A stretch of DNA of 64,000 nt, from positions 1 through 64,000 of the forward strand of contig NZ_JAAKEN010000010.1 in NCBI RefSeq assembly GCF_011039175.1. The letters run 5' to 3'. A program made the translations under genes and the position numbers. Shown here piece by piece: positions 21,513-48,797 of the stretch; positions within the stretch are counted from its first letter, which is position 1; each line of letters begins with the position of its first letter. Source of the DNA: Slackia sp. ZJ119. Lineage in GTDB: Bacteria > Actinomycetota > Coriobacteriia > Coriobacteriales > Eggerthellaceae. The notes under the pieces are model-generated. The model searched no databases. It was not told the origin of the DNA and saw nothing but the letters and a program-made list of their open reading frames with translations.

Positions 21513-21638
21513 AGAAATGTCAGAAAAATTCGCATTTCGTCGACAAGGGCCCATGCAGCGCCGCGAAACCTTGCCAAATAGGCTAGAATGGCAACGTTTT
21601 GCATCTTTTACGCCGAGAACGAGGATACAACGACTGAC

Positions 21639-25843: not shown

Positions 25844-26842
25844 TCAGCGCCGCCGCGACGCGGCCATCGTATCGACGAGCCAGTCCACCAGCACGCCATG
25901 AGGGTCCGCCCCGCTTTTCATGGCGCGCTCGGCGTCGCGGGCGGACACGAGCGCACGGCGCAGCTCGTCGGGACGATAGGCGCCTCGCGCGGCATACACC
26001 TTCTTGACCTGCCATTCTTGCTTCTTCAGCGCAGCCGCCAGCGCCGACGCGCCCGTGTAGCCGCGGGCCTGCAGCGACGAGGCGCACAAAAGCTCGCGCA
26101 CGCGCGTCGCGCAAAAGCCCAAAAGAGCGAGCGGAGAGGTCGTCGACATGAGCGTCAGCAGGCCCAGGCAGCGCTGCGGCTGCCGTGCGCCGAACGCGTC
26201 GACCAGCTCCCAGGGCGACGCTTCTGCCGTCTGCGCAACCTCCGACGACACTTCCTGCGCCGTGATGGGATCGGTCCCCGCATGGCCGAGCGCAAGCTTT
26301 CTGACCTCGGCGTCGAGGTGCACCGTGTCCTCCCCCACCCGATCGACGAGCATCTTCGCCGCATCGGGGGTGATGGTCGCGCCATAGCCTACGGCCATCG
26401 AGCGCACCATGGCCGACAGCTTGTCCTTCTTCGGCGTGGCGCAGTTGATGACCGCGTTTTTGCCGGCCTTCGCCACCGCCTTGTACAGCCGCGTGTTGGC
26501 GGCGAGCTTTTCTGCCGACAGCAGAAGCACGGTGCTTTCGCACGGATGGGCCAGGTATTCGACAAGCGGCTCGCTGTCGGCCTTCTTGAGCTTTTCGACG
26601 CACGTCACGTCCACGAGGCGCAGCGGCGAGGCGAACGGCAGCGTGTTGCAGGCCGTGACGATCGCCTCGCCCGAAGCGCTGGCGCCGTCGAACTCTTCGC
26701 TGTTGAACGAGAGGTCTCCCAAAGCCTCGATGCGCCGCCGCAGCTTTTTGCGGACCGCGTCTCGTTTGAGGGCGTCGTCGCCCACCGCCAGGTAGGCGCA
26801 CAGGAATTCTCCGTTGTTCTGTTTCGCAGTCATGGACGTCAT
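25844..26842 (-). CDS. holA: DNA polymerase III subunit delta
   Basis: The 332-aa delta subunit opens the sliding clamp as part of the clamp loader. Recognition rests on the N-terminal FLCAYLAVGDDALKRDAV region, the central VLLLSAEKL and EVRKLALG segments, and the C-terminal LRRALVSARDAERAMKSG, typical of HolA/YqeN. It follows comEC after one base. comEA-comEC-holA is a frequent order in Gram-positive bacteria, which supports the call. An alternative start lies three codons later. Confidence 0.9.
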   Translation of the reverse strand: MTSMTAKQNNGEFLCAYLAVGDDALKRDAVRKKLRRRIEALGDLSFNSEEFDGASASGEAIVTACNTLPFASPLRLVDVTCVEKLKKADSEPLVEYLAHPCESTVLLLSAEKLAANTRLYKAVAKAGKNAVINCATPKKDKLSAMVRSMAVGYGATITPDAAKMLVDRVGEDTVHLDAEVRKLALGHAGTDPITAQEVSSEVAQTAEASPWELVDAFGARQPQRCLGLLTLMSTTSPLALLGFCATRVRELLCASSLQARGYTGASALAAALKKQEWQVKKVYAARGAYRPDELRRALVSARDAERAMKSGADPHGVLVDWLVDTMAASRRR

Positions 26843-26843
26843 T

Positions 26844-29222
26844 CTACCGCTGACAGGCCACCTCCAATCCGTCGCGGCGAAATACGCATGAAACGTCCCC
26901 CCGTTCGTCGGTCCGCGCGATGGAGGCGCCCACCTCTTCGAGCCGCTCGAGCGTTTCTGCCGCCGGATGGCCGTAGCGGTTGTTCGCCCCGGCGCTCACC
27001 AGGACAAGCGATGGCGAAAGGACCTGGGCCGCCTCGTCGTCGAGCGCCTTTTTCGACCCGTGGTGGCCCACCTTGTACACGTCGACGCGCCCCACCAGCC
27101 CGGCCTCGATCATCTCGGAGAGCTGCTCGGCCTCGGCGTCGCCCGTCATGAGCGTCGTCCAGTCGCCCGCGCCGTCGCCGTCCACGTCCGCCTTCGCCAG
27201 CACGCACAGGCTGTCCGCGTTGCCGCCTTCGTCGGAAAACGCCTGGGGCCACACCACATCCAGATTGAAGGCGCCGACCTGCACCGAATCGCCCTGCGAC
27301 AGGCCGACGATGCCGTCTTTGCCCGCCACCGCCGAAGCGTCGCGCAACAGCCGCTCGCACGAATCGCACCCGCAGCTGAGCGCGTCTTTCGCCACGAACA
27401 CGCGCTCGACGCCGACGATGCCGTCCAACGCCGTCAAGCTGCCCATATGGTCGTCGTCCCCGTGGGTCACCAGCACCCCGTCCAGATGCGCGATGCCGGC
27501 GCGAGCCAGCGCCGAAACGAGCTTCGCGTCCTGGTTGCCCGTGTCCACGAGCACGGCGCATCCCCGGCTGCGAATGACGAACGCGTCTCCCTGTCCCACG
27601 TCGAGCATGCGGATCTCGTCGGCGGCAAGCAGCGGACGCACGGCGACGACGACCGCCAGCGCAACGGCGAGCGACGCCGCGCAAACGACCGCGCCCGCAC
27701 CCGTCAGACGCGGCCACCAGAGCCACAAAAGAGCGCACAACGCAAACGCGACGGCGATCCCGACGCCTGGCGACAGGCTGGCCGGCACGCTGGCGTACGG
27801 CACCGACGCCAAAAGCGACACCACGCCGGAAAACAGCTCGGAAAACAGGCAGGCGGCGCCCAAGACGAGAGAGGCCGTCGCCGGTGCGGCGCAGGCGAGA
27901 AGCACAGAGACGAGGCAGGCGCCGCACAAGGGCGCGAACAGGGGCGCCACGACCGCATTGGCCAGCGGCGCGATGATCGACACCTGGGAGAACCAGGCGG
28001 CGGACAGAGGCAGCGTGGCAACGTTGGACGCCAGCGTGAGCGCAACGGCTTCGCGCAACGCTCGAGGAACCCAAGGCAGCGCCGTTTCGGCCCATGAGCC
28101 GACAAGGCCCGAGAAGAGCACGATGCCGAGCGTGGACGCGGCCGACAGCGCAAAGGACACCGACAGCGCCGTCCACGGGTCGGTCGCCAGAAAGACGATG
28201 ATGCACCACGACAGCGCCCCCAGCGCATAGGCCTTTCGCCCGACAAAGAACGACGCCAAGCCGGCCAAGGTCATCGCCGCAGCTCGCAGGCAAGAAACCG
28301 GCATGCCGGCAAGCACCACGTAAGCGGCGACGAACAGCGCTTGGATTGCAATCGAGACGCGTTTCGACACGCGAACGGCCTTGAGCAGACAGCCCAGCAG
28401 CGCACAGACGATGCTCAAATGGGCGCCCGACACGGCCACCACATGCGCCAGGCCGCACGCTTTGAAGTCTTGGTACAGCCCGTCGTCGAGGCTTTCGCGC
28501 CAGCCGCAGGCAAGGGCCGCCACCAGCGGGGCCCCGGCGTTCGGCACCGCTTCCAGCCGGTCGATGGCGGCGTTGCGCACGGCCAGGACGAGCCCTTTCA
28601 GGCCGGCCGGCTCAAGACGGTCGGCCTTGTCGACCTTCGCCGTCAAAAGGCAGCCGCTGCTCCAGGCATACGCCCTCGACGCCTCCTTCGGCCGTTCGAA
28701 CACGACCTTCGCGCACATGACGTCGCCATAGCGCACCTCGCCCACGTCTTCGGAAAACCGCACCGACACCTTGACCGCCCGCCCCTCGGCATCGGTCGCA
28801 CGGGCCGTGGCGCTTGTGCCGAACATGCCTGCAGAGCCGTCCTCAAGCGCCTCGATGACGACTTCTTTGCGCGACCCTTCCCACTCGCCCGCTTGCAACT
28901 GCTGGGCGCACAGCACGCACCCGACGAGCGCCGCACCAATGAAAACCCCGGTCAACGCTGCAAACAGGCTTCGACGCCTCGAGCGGACAAGGCCGACGGC
29001 GCATGCCAGGGCCGCCACGGCGCCGCACGCGCCGACAGCCAGCCAACGCTTCGCGTCGAAGCCCATGCCGACCGACAGCAAGCCGGCGCAGGCCAGCCAC
29101 AAGGCGAGCGCACAGACGAGCGAAAGCGGAAGCGACGGGCGCACCGTGCTTTTCGGGCCGGCCGTCCCGCTTGCCTCGAGCTGCGCGGACAGGCCTGCGC
29201 TTGCGGGCTGTTTGCCGTCCAC
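26844..29222 (-). CDS. comEC: DNA uptake channel protein ComEC
   Basis: This 792-aa polytopic membrane protein is expected to carry single-stranded DNA across the cytoplasmic membrane during transformation. N-terminal membrane segments are followed by an OB-like external region. The competence domain includes ACGLAHVVAVSGAHLSIV and many spans. The C-terminal metallo-beta-lactamase domain has LDVGQGDAFVI, HGDDDHMGS and KVGHHGSK. The start is a GTG at 29220-29222, four bases after the comEA stop, with a weak ribosome site; coupling to comEA is likely. A complete comEC plus comEA suggests the organism is or was transformable. Confidence 0.93.
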   Translation of the reverse strand: MDGKQPASAGLSAQLEASGTAGPKSTVRPSLPLSLVCALALWLACAGLLSVGMGFDAKRWLAVGACGAVAALACAVGLVRSRRRSLFAALTGVFIGAALVGCVLCAQQLQAGEWEGSRKEVVIEALEDGSAGMFGTSATARATDAEGRAVKVSVRFSEDVGEVRYGDVMCAKVVFERPKEASRAYAWSSGCLLTAKVDKADRLEPAGLKGLVLAVRNAAIDRLEAVPNAGAPLVAALACGWRESLDDGLYQDFKACGLAHVVAVSGAHLSIVCALLGCLLKAVRVSKRVSIAIQALFVAAYVVLAGMPVSCLRAAAMTLAGLASFFVGRKAYALGALSWCIIVFLATDPWTALSVSFALSAASTLGIVLFSGLVGSWAETALPWVPRALREAVALTLASNVATLPLSAAWFSQVSIIAPLANAVVAPLFAPLCGACLVSVLLACAAPATASLVLGAACLFSELFSGVVSLLASVPYASVPASLSPGVGIAVAFALCALLWLWWPRLTGAGAVVCAASLAVALAVVVAVRPLLAADEIRMLDVGQGDAFVIRSRGCAVLVDTGNQDAKLVSALARAGIAHLDGVLVTHGDDDHMGSLTALDGIVGVERVFVAKDALSCGCDSCERLLRDASAVAGKDGIVGLSQGDSVQVGAFNLDVVWPQAFSDEGGNADSLCVLAKADVDGDGAGDWTTLMTGDAEAEQLSEMIEAGLVGRVDVYKVGHHGSKKALDDEAAQVLSPSLVLVSAGANNRYGHPAAETLERLEEVGASIARTDERGDVSCVFRRDGLEVACQR

Positions 29223-29226
29223 GGCG

Positions 29227-30024
29227 CTACCCGACGCAGATGAAGTCGGCGATGGCGGCATACTTCTTCTCGCCGATGCCCGAGACGCGCTGCAAGTCCT
29301 CGCACGTTTCAAAAGGCCCGTTCGCGTCTCGGTCGGCGACGATCTTTTCCGCCGTGGAAGGCCCGACGCCCGAAAGCGTTTGCAGCTCTTCGGCCGTGGC
29401 CGTGTTGATGTTGACGAGCGCCGGGGCAGCCTCGGCGTCTCCTGCCGCCGCTCCGGACGCCCCCGCCGCCTCCTGCGCCGCCGCATCCCAGCCCGTGCCG
29501 GCGGCGGCGTATTCTTCCTGGGTCGGCACGATGATGCGTTCGCCGTCGACCACCGGCCGCGCCAGGTTCACGGCGTCAGCAGCGCCGTCGGCAGAAAACC
29601 CGCCGGCGAGCTCGATGGCGTCGGCCACTCGCGACGAAGCGGGCATCTCGTACACCCCGGGGGACGCGACCGCGCCGCCCACGTGGACGAACACCGTTGC
29701 CGGGACGGCTGCGGCCGGCTCGGCGCCCGGTGCGCCGGCAGCCGCCGTTTCGCTTTCCTGGCCAGGGCCTTTTTCGCCTGTCGGCTCCTGCGCCTTCGAC
29801 GCTTCCTCGGACGGCTCTTGCGGCTGTTGGCCAGCTCCCGCCTCCTGTTCGGACAACGCCTGCTCGATCACGAGCGACTCGCCCGACACCGCGCCGAACA
29901 ACGACGTGCCGGCGAACACGACGACGGCCACCGCTGCCACGGCGAGCCCTATCGCAACCGGCAGCTTCGCGCCTCCCAGATGCGCCTTCGACCGCAGCGA
30001 CTCGGCCTGCTCCACAAACGCCAT
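29227..30024 (-). CDS. comEA: DNA receptor ComEA
   Basis: The 265-aa membrane-anchored protein binds double-stranded DNA at the cell surface and passes it to ComEC. There is an N-terminal span (about residues 22-45), then a long Gln/Glu/Pro/Ala-rich spacer (50-105). An SLBB domain includes VFVHVGGAVASPGVYEM, and the C-terminal helix-hairpin-helix pair is NINTATAEELQTLSGVG with FETCEDLQRVSGIGEKK. AGAAGGGGG precedes the ATG. Upstream is a -10-like TAGACT joined to a 59-nt block shared with recA, which suggests co-regulation. Confidence 0.95.
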   Translation of the reverse strand: MAFVEQAESLRSKAHLGGAKLPVAIGLAVAAVAVVVFAGTSLFGAVSGESLVIEQALSEQEAGAGQQPQEPSEEASKAQEPTGEKGPGQESETAAAGAPGAEPAAAVPATVFVHVGGAVASPGVYEMPASSRVADAIELAGGFSADGAADAVNLARPVVDGERIIVPTQEEYAAAGTGWDAAAQEAAGASGAAAGDAEAAPALVNINTATAEELQTLSGVGPSTAEKIVADRDANGPFETCEDLQRVSGIGEKKYAAIADFICVG

Positions 30025-30053: not shown

Positions 30054-30112
30054 AGTCTAGCAGGGAAACCTTTCACGCCTTTGACGTAGATCTGACATTT
30101 CGCGCCGTCGGA
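30054..30112 (-). promoter_or_regulatory. comEA promoter block shared with recA
   Basis: Counting from the -10-like TAGACT (minus strand; 30054-30059), 59 nt align without gaps to 47352-47410 upstream of recA, 45 identical by eye. Conserved words on the plus strand are GAAACCTT, GCCTTTGAC, AGATC and GACATTTC. At the sigma-70 -35 position there is no good hexamer, so an activator or alternative sigma factor is more likely. Confidence 0.6.
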
Positions 30113-30240
30113 CCTCATCGCCATCTTGCACCGATGCACGCGAAACCTTGCAGCGTTCCCATCGTTTCTTGCGCGGATCCCACCGCGTTTTCATCGAAAC
30201 GCTCAAAAACCTGGACTCTTGGAAGACGCTGGTCGCTTCC

Positions 30241-45444: not shown

Positions 45445-46200
45445 CTACGACCGGCAGGCCTCTTCACGCGCTTCATCCATCCATCGGTTGACGGCTTCGA
45501 TGGCCGTGGCGTTGTCGTAGCCCTTTTGGCGCAGGCGCCGATAGGCCGCGTCGCGTTGGTTTTTCGCCTTGGGTGGACGCTTGCGCAGCAGCTCAACGGC
45601 CTGGTCGGCCTCTCGCTGCGGCGCCACCTCGTCGCGATATTCCACGAAGGCGCTCACCGTTTCTGGGTCTATGTGGTTGTCAAGGAGCTCGCGAGCGATG
45701 CCTTGGCATCCTTTGCCTTGAGAGATGCGACTGCTGACCAGGATGTTCGCATAGCGGGCGTCATCGACCAGCCCCAGTTCGACGGCGCGTCGTATGGCCG
45801 CATCGGCAACCGTCTCGTCAAACGACGCCTGCAAGAGCCGCTTCTTCAGCGATCTCGTCGAATGCTCCCGGTGGTTGACCAGGCGCACGATCTTGCTCAT
45901 GGCCGCGTCATGCCCTTTTTCTTGCCCGCCGCCGCGCCCGGCGCAAGCCGCATGCCCGCCCCGCCCGCCTGCGCCTTTGCCGCTGCGCGTTCTGCCCAAC
46001 GCGGCGTCTGCTGCGCCTGTGCCTCCAAGGCCGACCGGCTCCAAGTCCCACGCCGCTTCCGACGCGTCCGCGCCGATGCCTGCCGCTTGCTTCTTTCGGA
46101 CGGCTTGTTTTGCCTGCACGCCCACCGGCGCACGCTCGCCCCGTTCGATGGCCCGCATCGAAGCACGAAGCTGTTCGAGCACGGCCTGCTTGTCGTCCAT
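45445..46200 (-). CDS. recX: RecA regulator RecX with long N-terminal extension
   Basis: The 251-aa protein has a RecX domain from about residue 100 (SKIVRLVNHREHSTRSLKKRL, then RYANILVSSRISQGKGCQGI and DAAYRRLRQKGYD). RecX inhibits or modulates RecA filaments. The first 100 residues are basic, then Gly/Ala-rich (GGRGGHAACAGRGGGQ), and have no recognised domain. RecX proteins are more often 150-200 aa. It starts two bases after the recA stop, so translation is coupled. Confidence 0.88.
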   Translation of the reverse strand: MDDKQAVLEQLRASMRAIERGERAPVGVQAKQAVRKKQAAGIGADASEAAWDLEPVGLGGTGAADAALGRTRSGKGAGGRGGHAACAGRGGGQEKGHDAAMSKIVRLVNHREHSTRSLKKRLLQASFDETVADAAIRRAVELGLVDDARYANILVSSRISQGKGCQGIARELLDNHIDPETVSAFVEYRDEVAPQREADQAVELLRKRPPKAKNQRDAAYRRLRQKGYDNATAIEAVNRWMDEAREEACRS

Positions 46201-46202
46201 GG

Positions 46203-47258
46203 CTATTTCTTCTTAGGCTTGGAAACGGTCTTCACTTCCGCCATTTCCTCGTCGGTGCGGGTGATGATGGGCATGTCGTACGCCTCGCGCACCTTCGTCT
46301 CAAGCTCGTCTCGCAGATCGGGGTTTTCCTTCAACGTTTTTTTCGCCGCTTCGCGCCCTTGGCCCAGTCGCTCTTCACCGTAGGTGTACCACGCGCCGCT
46401 CTTCTTCGCGACGCCGCATTCGACGGCCATGTCCACGATGCAGCCCTCTTTCGAGATGCCTTCGCCGTACATGAGGTCGAATTCCGCCTGGCGGAACGGC
46501 GGCGCGACCTTGTTCTTCACGACTTTGGCGCGCACGCGGTTGCCGACCATCTCGCCGTCTTTCTTCAACGTTTCAATGCGTCGTATGTCGATGCGCACCG
46601 ACGAGAAGAACTTGAGGGCGCGGCCGCCGGTCGTGGTTTCCGGATTGCCGAACATGACGCCGATCTTCTCGCGCAGCTGGTTGATGAATATGCAGGTGGT
46701 GTTCGACTTCGACAGCGAGCCCGCCAGCTTGCGCAGCGCCTGGGACATGAGCCGCGCCTGCAGGCCGACGGTGGTGTCGCCGATCTCCCCCTCTATTTCG
46801 GCTCGGGGAACAAGCGCCGCGACCGAGTCGACGACGACGCAGTCGATGGCACCGCTGCGCACCAGCATGTCGCAGATTTCAAGCGCTTGCTCGCCGGTGT
46901 CGGGCTGCGAGATGAGCACTTCGTCGATGTCGACGCCAAGCCGCGCCGCATACACCGGGTCAAGGGCATGCTCTGCGTCGATGAACGCCACGATGCCGCC
47001 GAGCGCCTGGGCTTCTGCGAGGATCTGCAAGGCGAGCGTCGTCTTGCCGCTCGACTCGGGCCCGTAGATCTCCACGATGCGGCCGCGCGGCACGCCGCCG
47101 ATGCCAAGCGCGGCGTCGAGCGGCAGCGCACCTGTCGGGATGGCGTCGACGGCAAGCTCCTTGCCGCTTTCGCCGAACTTCATGATGGCGCCCTTCCCGA
47201 ACTTGTCCGTGATGGAGTCGGTGGTGAGCTTGAGCATCTTCTCTTTTTCTTCGTTCAT
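46203..47258 (-). CDS. recA: Recombinase RecA
   Basis: The 351-aa RecA drives strand exchange and the SOS co-protease activity. Walker A is [10 protein letters not shown], Walker B is [11 protein letters not shown], and loops include [29 protein letters not shown]. It starts [23 protein letters not shown]. Promoter P1 lies at 47302-47329 with two 14-nt repeats around it, and a second promoter-like block shared with comEA lies further upstream. recX follows. Confidence 0.98.
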
Positions 47259-47282: not shown

Positions 47283-47329
47283 GTACATAAGTTTGCATCC
47301 TATTATAAGTACAAACGTTTGCCTGTCAA
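47283..47329 (-). promoter_or_regulatory. recA promoter P1 with two candidate operator repeats
   Basis: The minus strand reads TTGACA (47324-47329), 16 nt, TATAAT (47302-47307), a perfect-hexamer promoter. On the plus strand GTACAAACGTTTGC (47309-47322) fills the spacer and GTACATAAGTTTGC (47283-47296) lies just downstream of the -10; they match at 12 of 14 positions. Such placement suits a repressor, possibly LexA, but they are not the classical GAAC-N4-GTTC box. Confidence 0.75.
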
Positions 47330-47351: not shown

Positions 47352-47410
47352 AGTATACAAAAGAAACCTTGCCGGCCTTTGACCCAGATCAGACATTTCT
47401 CGCCATCGAA
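47352..47410 (-). promoter_or_regulatory. Upstream recA promoter block shared with comEA
   Basis: A -10-like TATACT (minus; 47352-47357) is joined to a 52-nt block matching the comEA promoter region (30054-30112) without gaps. It stands about 95 nt upstream of the recA ATG and 22 nt upstream of P1, so it would give recA a second start. The rest of 47411-47552 has no supported gene. Confidence 0.6.
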
Positions 47411-47552
47411 GCTTTCGCGCCTGGACACGGTTTCTTACGCAAATTCGATCGCATTCTCACCAGAATGCGGCGCACGTCCCATTGCTTCTCGCGCGGCGCT
47501 TGCGAACGCTGCCCGCACGGCCCTGACCAGGGATTGCCGCAACGACCCTAAG

Positions 47553-48797
47553 CTAGCGCTTCAGCTCGTCGAGCAGCTCGCACAAGGCGGCGCGGACGGT
47601 CAGCAGGCGCACTTCGTCGCGGTTGCCGGGGAAGGCGAACCGGCGCGTTCGCTCTTCGGTCTTCGATGCGAGCGCCATCCACACCGTGCCGACGGGCTTT
47701 CCCGGCTCGGCGCCGGTCGGGCCGGCGATCCCCGTCACGGCGACGGCAAGCCCCGCATCGAGCACCTCGACCGCCCCACGGGCCATGGAAAGCGCGGTCT
47801 GCTCGCTCACGACACCGTCGCCTTCGATGGTCGCCTCGGCGACGCCGAGCACCTGCTCTTTCACCTCGGCCATGTAGCTCACGACCCCGCCGCGCACCAC
47901 GGCCGAGCTTCCCGGCACCGCCGTCAGCGCCGCCGAGATCATGCCGCCGGTCAGGCTTTCAGCCGTCGCGACGCTCACGCCTTTGGCCGCCGCCGCTTCC
48001 ACGACCGCGCCCGCCAGCGCCGCAAGCTCCATCGGCTCGATGGACGCCCGCTCGGCAGGCGAAAGCTCGGCCCTTTGCGCCTCAGACGCATCCGCCGCCC
48101 CTGCGGCCGCTTCTTCTTGCTGGGTCGCTTTCTTCTCGCAGCGGCGCCGTTCGCGGTCCGCGTTGCGCGGCCCCAGCCCGATGAGGCTTCGGGCCTTCAC
48201 GATGTAGTCCAGCATCGACACGATGGTCAACACGAGCGCAACGATCATCACCGCCCAACTGACCAGCCACAACGTGTCGCCGAACGGCGCGGTGACCGCC
48301 CCCACCATGTAGGAGTCCTTCACGGTGAACAGCACGATGGCGATCATCTGAAAGACCGTCTTGAACTTGCCGTACCAGCTGGCCGCGATGACGACGCCTT
48401 TGCTTGCGGCCATCATGCGCACGCCCGAAACGATGAACTCGCGCGAAAGAATGACGAGCACGATCCACGACGGCAGCGTCCCCAGCTCGATCAGCGCAAG
48501 CAGCGCAGCCGTGACAAGGATCTTGTCAGCCAGAGGATCCATGAACTTCCCGAAGTTCGTGACCTCGCCGCGCGAGCGGGCAAGATACCCGTCGAGCCAA
48601 TCCGTGCAGGAAATGACCACGAAAATGACGGCGGCGACGAGGCTTTTCTCGTTGTTGGCCACCTGTGGCAGTCCGAGCCACTCCGGCCACGGCGAGAGGA
48701 TGGCGACGACGAACAGCGGTACCAGGCAAATGCGGACCAAGGTGACGACGTTTGCCGGGGTCATGAGTTTTTCGCTCACAGCGTCTGCGGACGACAT
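47553..48797 (-). CDS. pgsA: Fusion of phosphatidylglycerophosphate synthase (PgsA) and nicotinamide-nucleotide amidase (PncC/CinA C-terminal)
   Basis: The 414-aa protein joins two enzymes. Residues 1-210 are a polytopic CDP-alcohol phosphatidyltransferase with the full motif D-x2-DG-x2-AR-x8-G-x3-D-x3-D (Asp66 to Asp91), which makes phosphatidylglycerophosphate. A charged linker (about 212-255) leads into a CinA C-terminal domain: TAESLTGG (279-285), PGSSAVVRGGVVSY and TGIAGPTGAEPGKPVG, the deamidase active site for NMN recycling. In many genomes pgsA, cinA and recA are neighbours as separate genes; here the first two are one frame without stop or shift. rimO is 6 nt upstream. Confidence 0.9.
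   Translation of the reverse strand: MSSADAVSEKLMTPANVVTLVRICLVPLFVVAILSPWPEWLGLPQVANNEKSLVAAVIFVVISCTDWLDGYLARSRGEVTNFGKFMDPLADKILVTAALLALIELGTLPSWIVLVILSREFIVSGVRMMAASKGVVIAASWYGKFKTVFQMIAIVLFTVKDSYMVGAVTAPFGDTLWLVSWAVMIVALVLTIVSMLDYIVKARSLIGLGPRNADRERRRCEKKATQQEEAAAGAADASEAQRAELSPAERASIEPMELAALAGAVVEAAAAKGVSVATAESLTGGMISAALTAVPGSSAVVRGGVVSYMAEVKEQVLGVAEATIEGDGVVSEQTALSMARGAVEVLDAGLAVAVTGIAGPTGAEPGKPVGTVWMALASKTEERTRRFAFPGNRDEVRLLTVRAALCELLDELKR

Follow-up and report, generated by a model that had tools for sequence, protein, structure and literature searches.

The 59-nt block shared by the upstream regions of comEA and recA in the window (the whole 64,000-nt stretch that was analysed) is probably, judging from its sequence, the box of a SARP-type activator together with its -10 hexamer, marking a late-competence regulon of this Eggerthellaceae genome that would be read by one large SARP protein. 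The box and the competence regulon are well supported by the sequence, the SARP protein is the best-supported inference for the reader and activator of the box, and we infer regulator binding at the box, joint induction of the genes and DNA uptake by the cells. The initial annotation had regarded comEA-comEC and recA as a candidate competence regulon. This reading is supported and enlarged here, since the Tad pilus operon, ssb, comM-dprA, a second ssb and recN also carry the motif.

The shared block upstream of comEA and recA

When recomputed, the blocks at comEA (30054-30112) and recA (47352-47410) were, as previously annotated, identical at 45 of 59 positions without a gap and in the same orientation relative to the gene; both lie on the minus strand and read into their genes. 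The best other score of the comEA block against the rest of the window, both strands included, was 30/59, the forward-strand background having a mean of 15.0/59 (sd 3.4). A 36-letter core allowing up to 3 mismatches matched twice in the window and not at all in 100 dinucleotide shuffles.

By sequence alignment both blocks are competence-type promoter boxes, and each can be divided into three heptamers (the division is our own), an 8-nt spacer and a -10 hexamer. At comEA the heptamers are GTCAGAT (30090-30096), GTCAAAG (30079-30085) and GAAAGGT (30068-30074), followed by the spacer (30060-30067) and the -10 TAGACT (30054-30059). The recA box consists of GTCTGAT (47388-47394), GTCAAAG (47377-47383) and GCAAGGT (47366-47372), the spacer (47358-47365) and the -10 TATACT (47352-47357). 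The similarity continues upstream, where TCCGA corresponds to TTCGA. The comEA extension AGGTCCGACGGCGCGAAAT (30097-30115, minus strand) is partly kept in eight sites from the window genome and one relative, and the recA extension AGCTTCGATGGCGAGAAAT (47395-47413, minus strand) follows from the alignment. No TTGACA was seen by eye at the usual distance from either -10, in agreement with the earlier observation that a normal -35 is missing.

A shorter match, annotated at 21514-21524 as lying upstream of lepA, appears fortuitous. Allowing up to 2 mismatches, matches to the 12-mer number 8 in the window where 9.5 are expected, and the genome model reports no site at lepA, so this match was rejected as a real site.

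Careful inspection by eye revealed a second, ordinary-looking promoter nearer to recA that had been overlooked in the initial annotation (47302-47329, minus strand). It has the sigma-A-like form TTGACA-N16-TATAAT with the palindrome CAAACGTTTG between the hexamers, which is possibly the SOS operator of the lineage.

All genes behind the two boxes are on the minus strand and were identified by Pfam. The comEA gene (29227-30024) encodes a DNA receptor with SLBB and helix-hairpin-helix domains, the NCBIfam model of the helix-hairpin-helix repeat being above its cut-off and the full comE model below. The comEC gene (26844-29486) encodes the DNA channel with a metallo-beta-lactamase domain and exceeds the cut-off of the ComEC_Rec2 equivalog; the next gene in the same direction is holA, encoding DNA polymerase III delta (25844-26842). 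The recA gene (46203-47258), also identified by NCBIfam, is followed downstream by recX (45445-46200). Just upstream of recA, a single 414-aa frame (47553-48797, minus strand) combines pgsA with a CinA C-terminal (nicotinamide-nucleotide amidase) domain.

The regulon in the window genome and its sister

A 23-letter core with 19 specified positions, searched with up to 3 mismatches, matched four sites in the 2.84 Mb of the window genome (G000), and the reversed pattern none. The two sites beyond comEA and recA precede rpsF-ssb (rpsF confirmed by domain scan) and cpaB, which opens a Tad pilus operon encoding CpaB, a MinD/ParA-like ATPase, T2SSE, two T2SSF proteins and TadE. Judged by this site, cpaB-tadA-tadB-tadC would belong to the regulon. 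A sister genome of the same genus (G002) has four matches as well, at the same four genes. The eight sites align without gaps, the -10 included, and keep one distance to it.

A sequence-only model built from these eight sites found at least 11 sites with E up to 0.01 in the window genome, four of them training sites, and at least 16 up to E 10; in the sister genome at least 10 and at least 12 were found at the same thresholds. The model searches scored 150 of 256, 212, 155, 172, 1277, 1583 and 1302 first-look candidates, and weak sites may be missing because only part of the candidates was scored. Wide occurrence at other places would have spoken against the original proposal. The motif is not widespread: the sites listed at E up to 0.01 number 11 in 2.84 Mb, each ahead of a frame on the same strand.

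The seven new sites of the window genome precede yraN-comM-dprA, a second ssb, recN, a giant adhesin gene and three Rpn-type nuclease-like genes. Among the genes that the initial annotation had named as ones to look for, dprA and ssb thus carry the motif, the former within yraN-comM-dprA and the latter both as rpsF-ssb and as the second ssb. For comF the result is partial, with a comF-like gene in one relative only (G006), behind that genome's own box and with a weak site (E 0.003). The recN site is the weakest (17.8 bits), the gene being assigned by its SMC_N/AAA domains. The adhesin has 2,713 aa with SpaA and T-Q ester-bond domains, and is followed by a sortase-like gene whose domain match is just below cut-off. 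As for the nuclease-like genes, the Rpn family matches of C36:108429 and C35:165921 are below the curated cut-off, and C35:70867, with no Pfam match, is nuclease-like by resemblance. A further site at C18:5292 (E 0.08) precedes a gene whose Rpn match is above cut-off.

Of the six new sites of the sister genome, four stand before Rpn-like frames (by resemblance) and one each before yraN and the adhesin (scan-confirmed), and another site (E 0.24) lies before a Gp49-type gene. Among the matches listed, no model site was found there at recN or at a second ssb, though a second ssb is present, and two other genomes of the genus had no site up to E 10 among the matches listed. A common promoter element thus stands before genes for DNA uptake, single-strand DNA protection and, weakly in the case of recN, recombination, as in a late-competence regulon.

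Different boxes at the same genes in other Eggerthellaceae

The exact pattern gave no match in 84,980 named-species genomes, a set from which near relatives of the window may have been left out, and a longer pattern was found in 2 of 60 genomes, namely the window genome and one relative. This sparse occurrence was considered as a refutation of the regulon, and was dropped after the upstream regions of comEA, recA, ssb and cpaB had been compared inside each genome. Many genomes have a common block of their own, exemplified by G020, where 34-38 of 40 nt are common to all four genes. Promoter pairs sharing at least 28/40 nt made up 40 of 110 within genomes, a count in which the misplaced cpaB upstream regions of G000 and G002 (the open frame continues upstream) were entered as misses, against 6 of 771 between genomes, the latter being a random sample of about 35% that may include G000-G002 pairs, which share their box.

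When a -10-like hexamer was required as well, the block of 13 of 19 genomes exceeded all 100 of their own dinucleotide shuffles, G004 barely and with G006 and G010 favoured by cpaB regions taken from places found by one of our models (R3). The block of G017 was reached by 2 of 100 shuffles, and five of the 19 (G001, G003, G009, G011 and G012) had no clear block beyond shuffles; G001 and G003 belong to the same genus as the window. The strongly G+C-rich block of G007 may belong to a different class. Relatives thus mostly lack the window sequence and carry their own shared block before these genes, suggesting that the regulon persists while the box drifts.

The independent box of G020 precedes comEA, recA, rpsF-ssb, cpaB, yraN-comM-dprA and an adhesin gene. 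A model of this box found at least four further sites, each with E 1e-12 or better, before yraN-comM-dprA (yraN confirmed by domain scan), the SpaA/T-Q adhesin, a signal-peptidase-like gene and a weakly nuclease-like protein (E 0.0045, below cut-off). The boxes of G006 and G010 resemble each other and represent a third type, found at comEA, recA, ssb, yraN-comM and an adhesin-like gene. The sites before yraN-comM and the adhesin-like gene are new in both genomes (genes identified by tblastn), and those at cpaB are weaker (E 5e-4 in G006, 0.05 in G010). Giant SpaA/T-Q adhesins with a box were recorded at L208:6436-14577, L209:2459-10768 and L202:1064-4249, all on the minus strand, and at L280 and L289, their identification resting on Pfam in G000, G002 and G020 and on tblastn similarity in G006 and G010.

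In G006 at least 12 new sites had E up to 0.01. Four are yraN-comM, the adhesin-like gene, cpaB and the comF-like gene, the zinc-ribbon and phosphoribosyltransferase matches of the last being below cut-off. The remaining ones precede genes for BrnT, two Gp49-type (HigB/RelE-like) proteins, a RelB antitoxin, an AbiEi antitoxin, a DUF559 protein and a protein without Pfam match, and one place has no called gene. G010 has at least seven new sites; besides yraN-comM and the adhesin-like gene they precede BrnT, a Gp49-type protein just below cut-off and three related small genes. The toxin-antitoxin genes behind competence-type boxes (BrnT, Gp49-type, RelB, AbiEi) are at L279, L287, L283, L291, L295 and L290. 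Two of the small genes (L284, L286, L288) encode 36-aa hydrophobic peptides, which we take to resemble type I toxins, and one is cut by a contig end. G006 also encodes a 196-aa protein behind a strong box (L285:1597-2187, plus strand) that looks JAB/RadC-like by eye and has no Pfam or NCBIfam match.

Box architecture

Self-similarity was computed at lags 3-30 over 32 pooled upstream stretches from nine genomes, with base-shuffled stretches as reference and the cpaB rows of G000, G002, G006 and G010 left out. Clear enrichment was found only at lags 11 (z 6.8) and 22 (z 5.3). In single genomes one of these lags came out on top in six of the nine, the others being G000, G020 and G015. In the SARP promoters described in parts of PMC10936776, the repeats are spaced by 11 or 22 bp and the one on the 3' side lies 8 bp from the -10, and the PimR targets treated in a section of PMC5930380 are heptamers with 4-nt spacers. 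The pooled lags show the same 11- or 22-bp direct repeats, and the boxes can be read as tandem heptamers with 4-nt spacers, exemplified by the sister recA (GTCAGAT-GTCAAAG-GCAAGGT, 8 nt, TATACT). With repeats assigned by eye, and in a search that itself required a -10-like hexamer, the 3' repeat ends 8 nt before the -10 and the -35 is poor in the boxes of G000, G002, G006, G010, G013, G015 and G019; in G020 and G008 the last repeat is, by eye, 1-2 nt off this spacing. The tandem-repeat array of G006 appeared very long by eye.

The initial annotation had called for a dedicated activator or sigma factor. An activator is likely, and in our reading it is of SARP type rather than a sigma factor because of the repeat geometry and the usual presence of a single SARP protein; the sigma factor is disfavoured.

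The candidate regulator

A SARP (BTAD) domain was found in 32 of 36 genomes and in 91 of 95 genomes of the family, with one copy in 85 and two in six. The protein of the window genome, encoded on contig C8, has 863 aa. Its N-terminal part contains, by eye, a P-loop-like motif; a winged helix and, at the C terminus, the BTAD domain come after it (E 3.5e-16; AfsR by sequence E 3e-5), the SARP part taking up about residues 608-863. It thus has the SARP family order of an OmpR-type winged helix and then BTAD, the Pfam winged helix not being above cut-off. Its predicted structure (mean pLDDT 83.7, pTM 0.63) is nearest in predicted fold to EmbR and to the AfsR SARP domain, the latter with a TM of 0.77 by target length, and its N-terminal part matches MalT weakly (TM 0.29, rmsd 20.6). 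The protein was rejected as an AfsR orthologue, the AfsR equivalog scoring 36.8 against a cut-off of 1430 and the SARP domain being C-terminal, not N-terminal. No box was found in the upstream region of the regulator gene in the nine genomes examined.

One genome, G005, has no CpaB, ComEC or SARP match and no recA-ssb block (23/40 against 24 for the reversed control), and comEA was taken as absent there because its two HHH_3 matches are weak and lie in long frames like those found beside comEA elsewhere. Three genomes (G082, G096 and G115) have ComEC and no SARP (BTAD) match, and in G016 and G114 ComEC alone is missing. Since SARP and ComEC are both nearly universal, joint absence comes down to one genome, and co-absence was set aside as strong evidence. 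A search with two peptides of the family returned 75 loci, of which the genus-titled ones, as recognised, are Coriobacteriia (among them Gordonibacter, Paraeggerthella, Adlercreutzia and Slackia); it is uninformative on absence elsewhere because such peptides find close relatives.

Similarity of the boxes in nine genomes, with the cpaB rows of G006 and G010 left out, correlated with that of the DNA-binding domain of the regulator (rho 0.56, p 0.013). G000 and G002 have the same box and 98% of this domain in common, and G006 and G010 come second in the similarity of both box (0.55) and domain (80%). The N-terminal part (rho 0.67), the BTAD part (0.49) and RecA (0.45) correlate too, so phylogeny may account for the relationship. 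With the N-terminal part held constant, the correlation of the DNA-binding domain drops to 0.13, and a covariation specific to this domain was not established.

This bears on the reading that the boxes are real competence boxes read by another OmpR/PhoB-type winged-helix regulator, e.g. a response regulator, which we consider unlikely. Pho boxes are 11-bp direct repeats adjoining the -10, and the GTCA-N7-GTCA of the box presumably resembles one. OmpR-type domains have the same repeat geometry, the counts per genome cover only the SARP among winged-helix regulators, the DNA-binding domain of the SARP does not stand out in the covariation, and three genomes from other families of the order (G036, G045 and the 78% complete G043) have comEA and no SARP match. 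Against this, the usual SARP copy number of one and the joint absence in G005 fit a SARP, as does the 3' repeat 8 nt from the -10 in most boxes, and no pst or pho gene is among those identified behind the sites.

That the sites mark a DNA-damage or general recombination regulon instead of competence is quite improbable. Such a regulon would account for recA, recN, ssb and dprA, and recA does have the nearer promoter with a palindrome. The box differs from that palindrome, however, and comEA-comEC, the Tad pilus operon, comM-dprA, the comF-like gene and the giant adhesin would be atypical repair genes. Direct reading of the block by a dedicated alternative sigma factor, suggested by the missing -35 and the long conserved block, is more improbable still, as the hexamer is an ordinary -10 (TATACT, TATGAT and others) whose distance is constant, and upstream of it stands an array of tandem repeats, very long in G006, unlike a sigma -35. 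A dispersed repeat copied to a few places would explain the high local identity and is hardly credible, given that all 11 sites have a same-strand frame downstream, that the eight model sites keep one -10 distance and that other genera have different sequences at the same genes.

A model for competence control and comparison with known systems

In the SARP-type reading, a signal would be sensed by the large C8 regulator (863 aa) through its nucleotide-binding-like N-terminal part, with the AfsR-like SARP domain at the C terminus. SARP domains would bind side by side on the tandem 7-nt repeats at 11 bp spacing, the array ending about 8 nt before the -10, and by analogy with AfsR the bound SARP would dock sigma region 4 where the -35 is missing. 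The regulon would then supply DNA uptake (comEA-comEC), the Tad pilus (cpaB-tadABC and further genes), handling of single-stranded DNA (rpsF-ssb, the second ssb, comM-dprA) and recombination (recA, recN). Regulator and box may drift together, giving lineages with their own box on the same core genes.

A wider reading, plausible if tentative, is that one large SARP controls competence across the Eggerthellaceae, with a fast-drifting box and fixed core targets, and that selfish or defensive modules (Rpn-type nucleases, toxin-antitoxin genes and small hydrophobic peptides) have in each lineage come under the local box and are turned on once the cell admits foreign DNA. The many boxes before nuclease-like or toxin-antitoxin genes are points against the SARP reading, as are the five genomes with no clear block, the genomes that have comEA or ComEC and no SARP match, and the absence of a box upstream of the regulator gene.

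Given the candidate regulator, the box and the gene list, competence control can be tested directly in gut bacteria that are in culture; relatives of the SARP regulator are encoded in Gordonibacter, Adlercreutzia, Eggerthella and others. If true, SARPs would be extended from antibiotic control to DNA uptake, such bacteria would be predicted to be naturally transformable through Tad pili, and the family would offer a natural series of drifting regulator-box pairs.

We found no description of a box-SARP competence system of Coriobacteriia in the open-licence literature, and the open-licence papers searched agree with the earlier statement that no competence regulator has been described for this class. 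The ComK, ComX/sigma-X and Sxy-CRP regulons comprise similar late genes, namely comEA/EC, recA, ssb, dprA, comF and a pilus. The present system differs from them in its Tad pilus and proposed SARP activator, and by eye we take the box to be unlike ComK, ComX or CRP-S sites.

A close parallel is Micrococcus luteus, likewise of the Actinomycetota, where transformation uses Tad/Flp pili and ComEA/EC according to passages of PMC4322843 and PMC12849477. The latter, a paper of January 2026, states in part of its text that the control of competence is poorly known in Actinomycetota and that the signals or cascade in M. luteus “remain to be identified”. A section of PMC8467076 describes mutations examined in connection with com expression, among them some in a region encoding an HTH_17 protein and, next to it, a CpaB homologue. 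The word SARP is absent from the main text of PMC12849477 and PMC8467076.

The toxin-antitoxin genes behind the competence-type boxes of G006 and G010 recall toxTA of Haemophilus influenzae, a toxin-antitoxin operon behind a competence promoter (PMC6957337, in part). Unlike toxTA, several unrelated modules are involved here (BrnT, Gp49-type, RelB and AbiEi), and in the window genome Rpn-type nuclease-like genes.

In architecture, the boxes resemble the Streptomyces SARP promoters of AfsR/afsS and PimR/pimM as partly covered by PMC10936776 and PMC5930380, with 11-bp tandem repeats of about 7 conserved nt, the 3' repeat about 8 bp before the -10 and a poor -35. AfsR docks sigma region 4 where the -35 is missing (PMC10936776, in part), and the activator of these promoters is a large SARP with a nucleotide-binding part (parts of PMC10936776 and PMC5930380), matching the candidate proposed here. 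In contrast to Streptomyces, where antibiotic genes are controlled and AfsR has its SARP domain at the N terminus, the targets here are DNA-uptake genes, the SARP domain of the candidate regulator is C-terminal and the box differs between genera.
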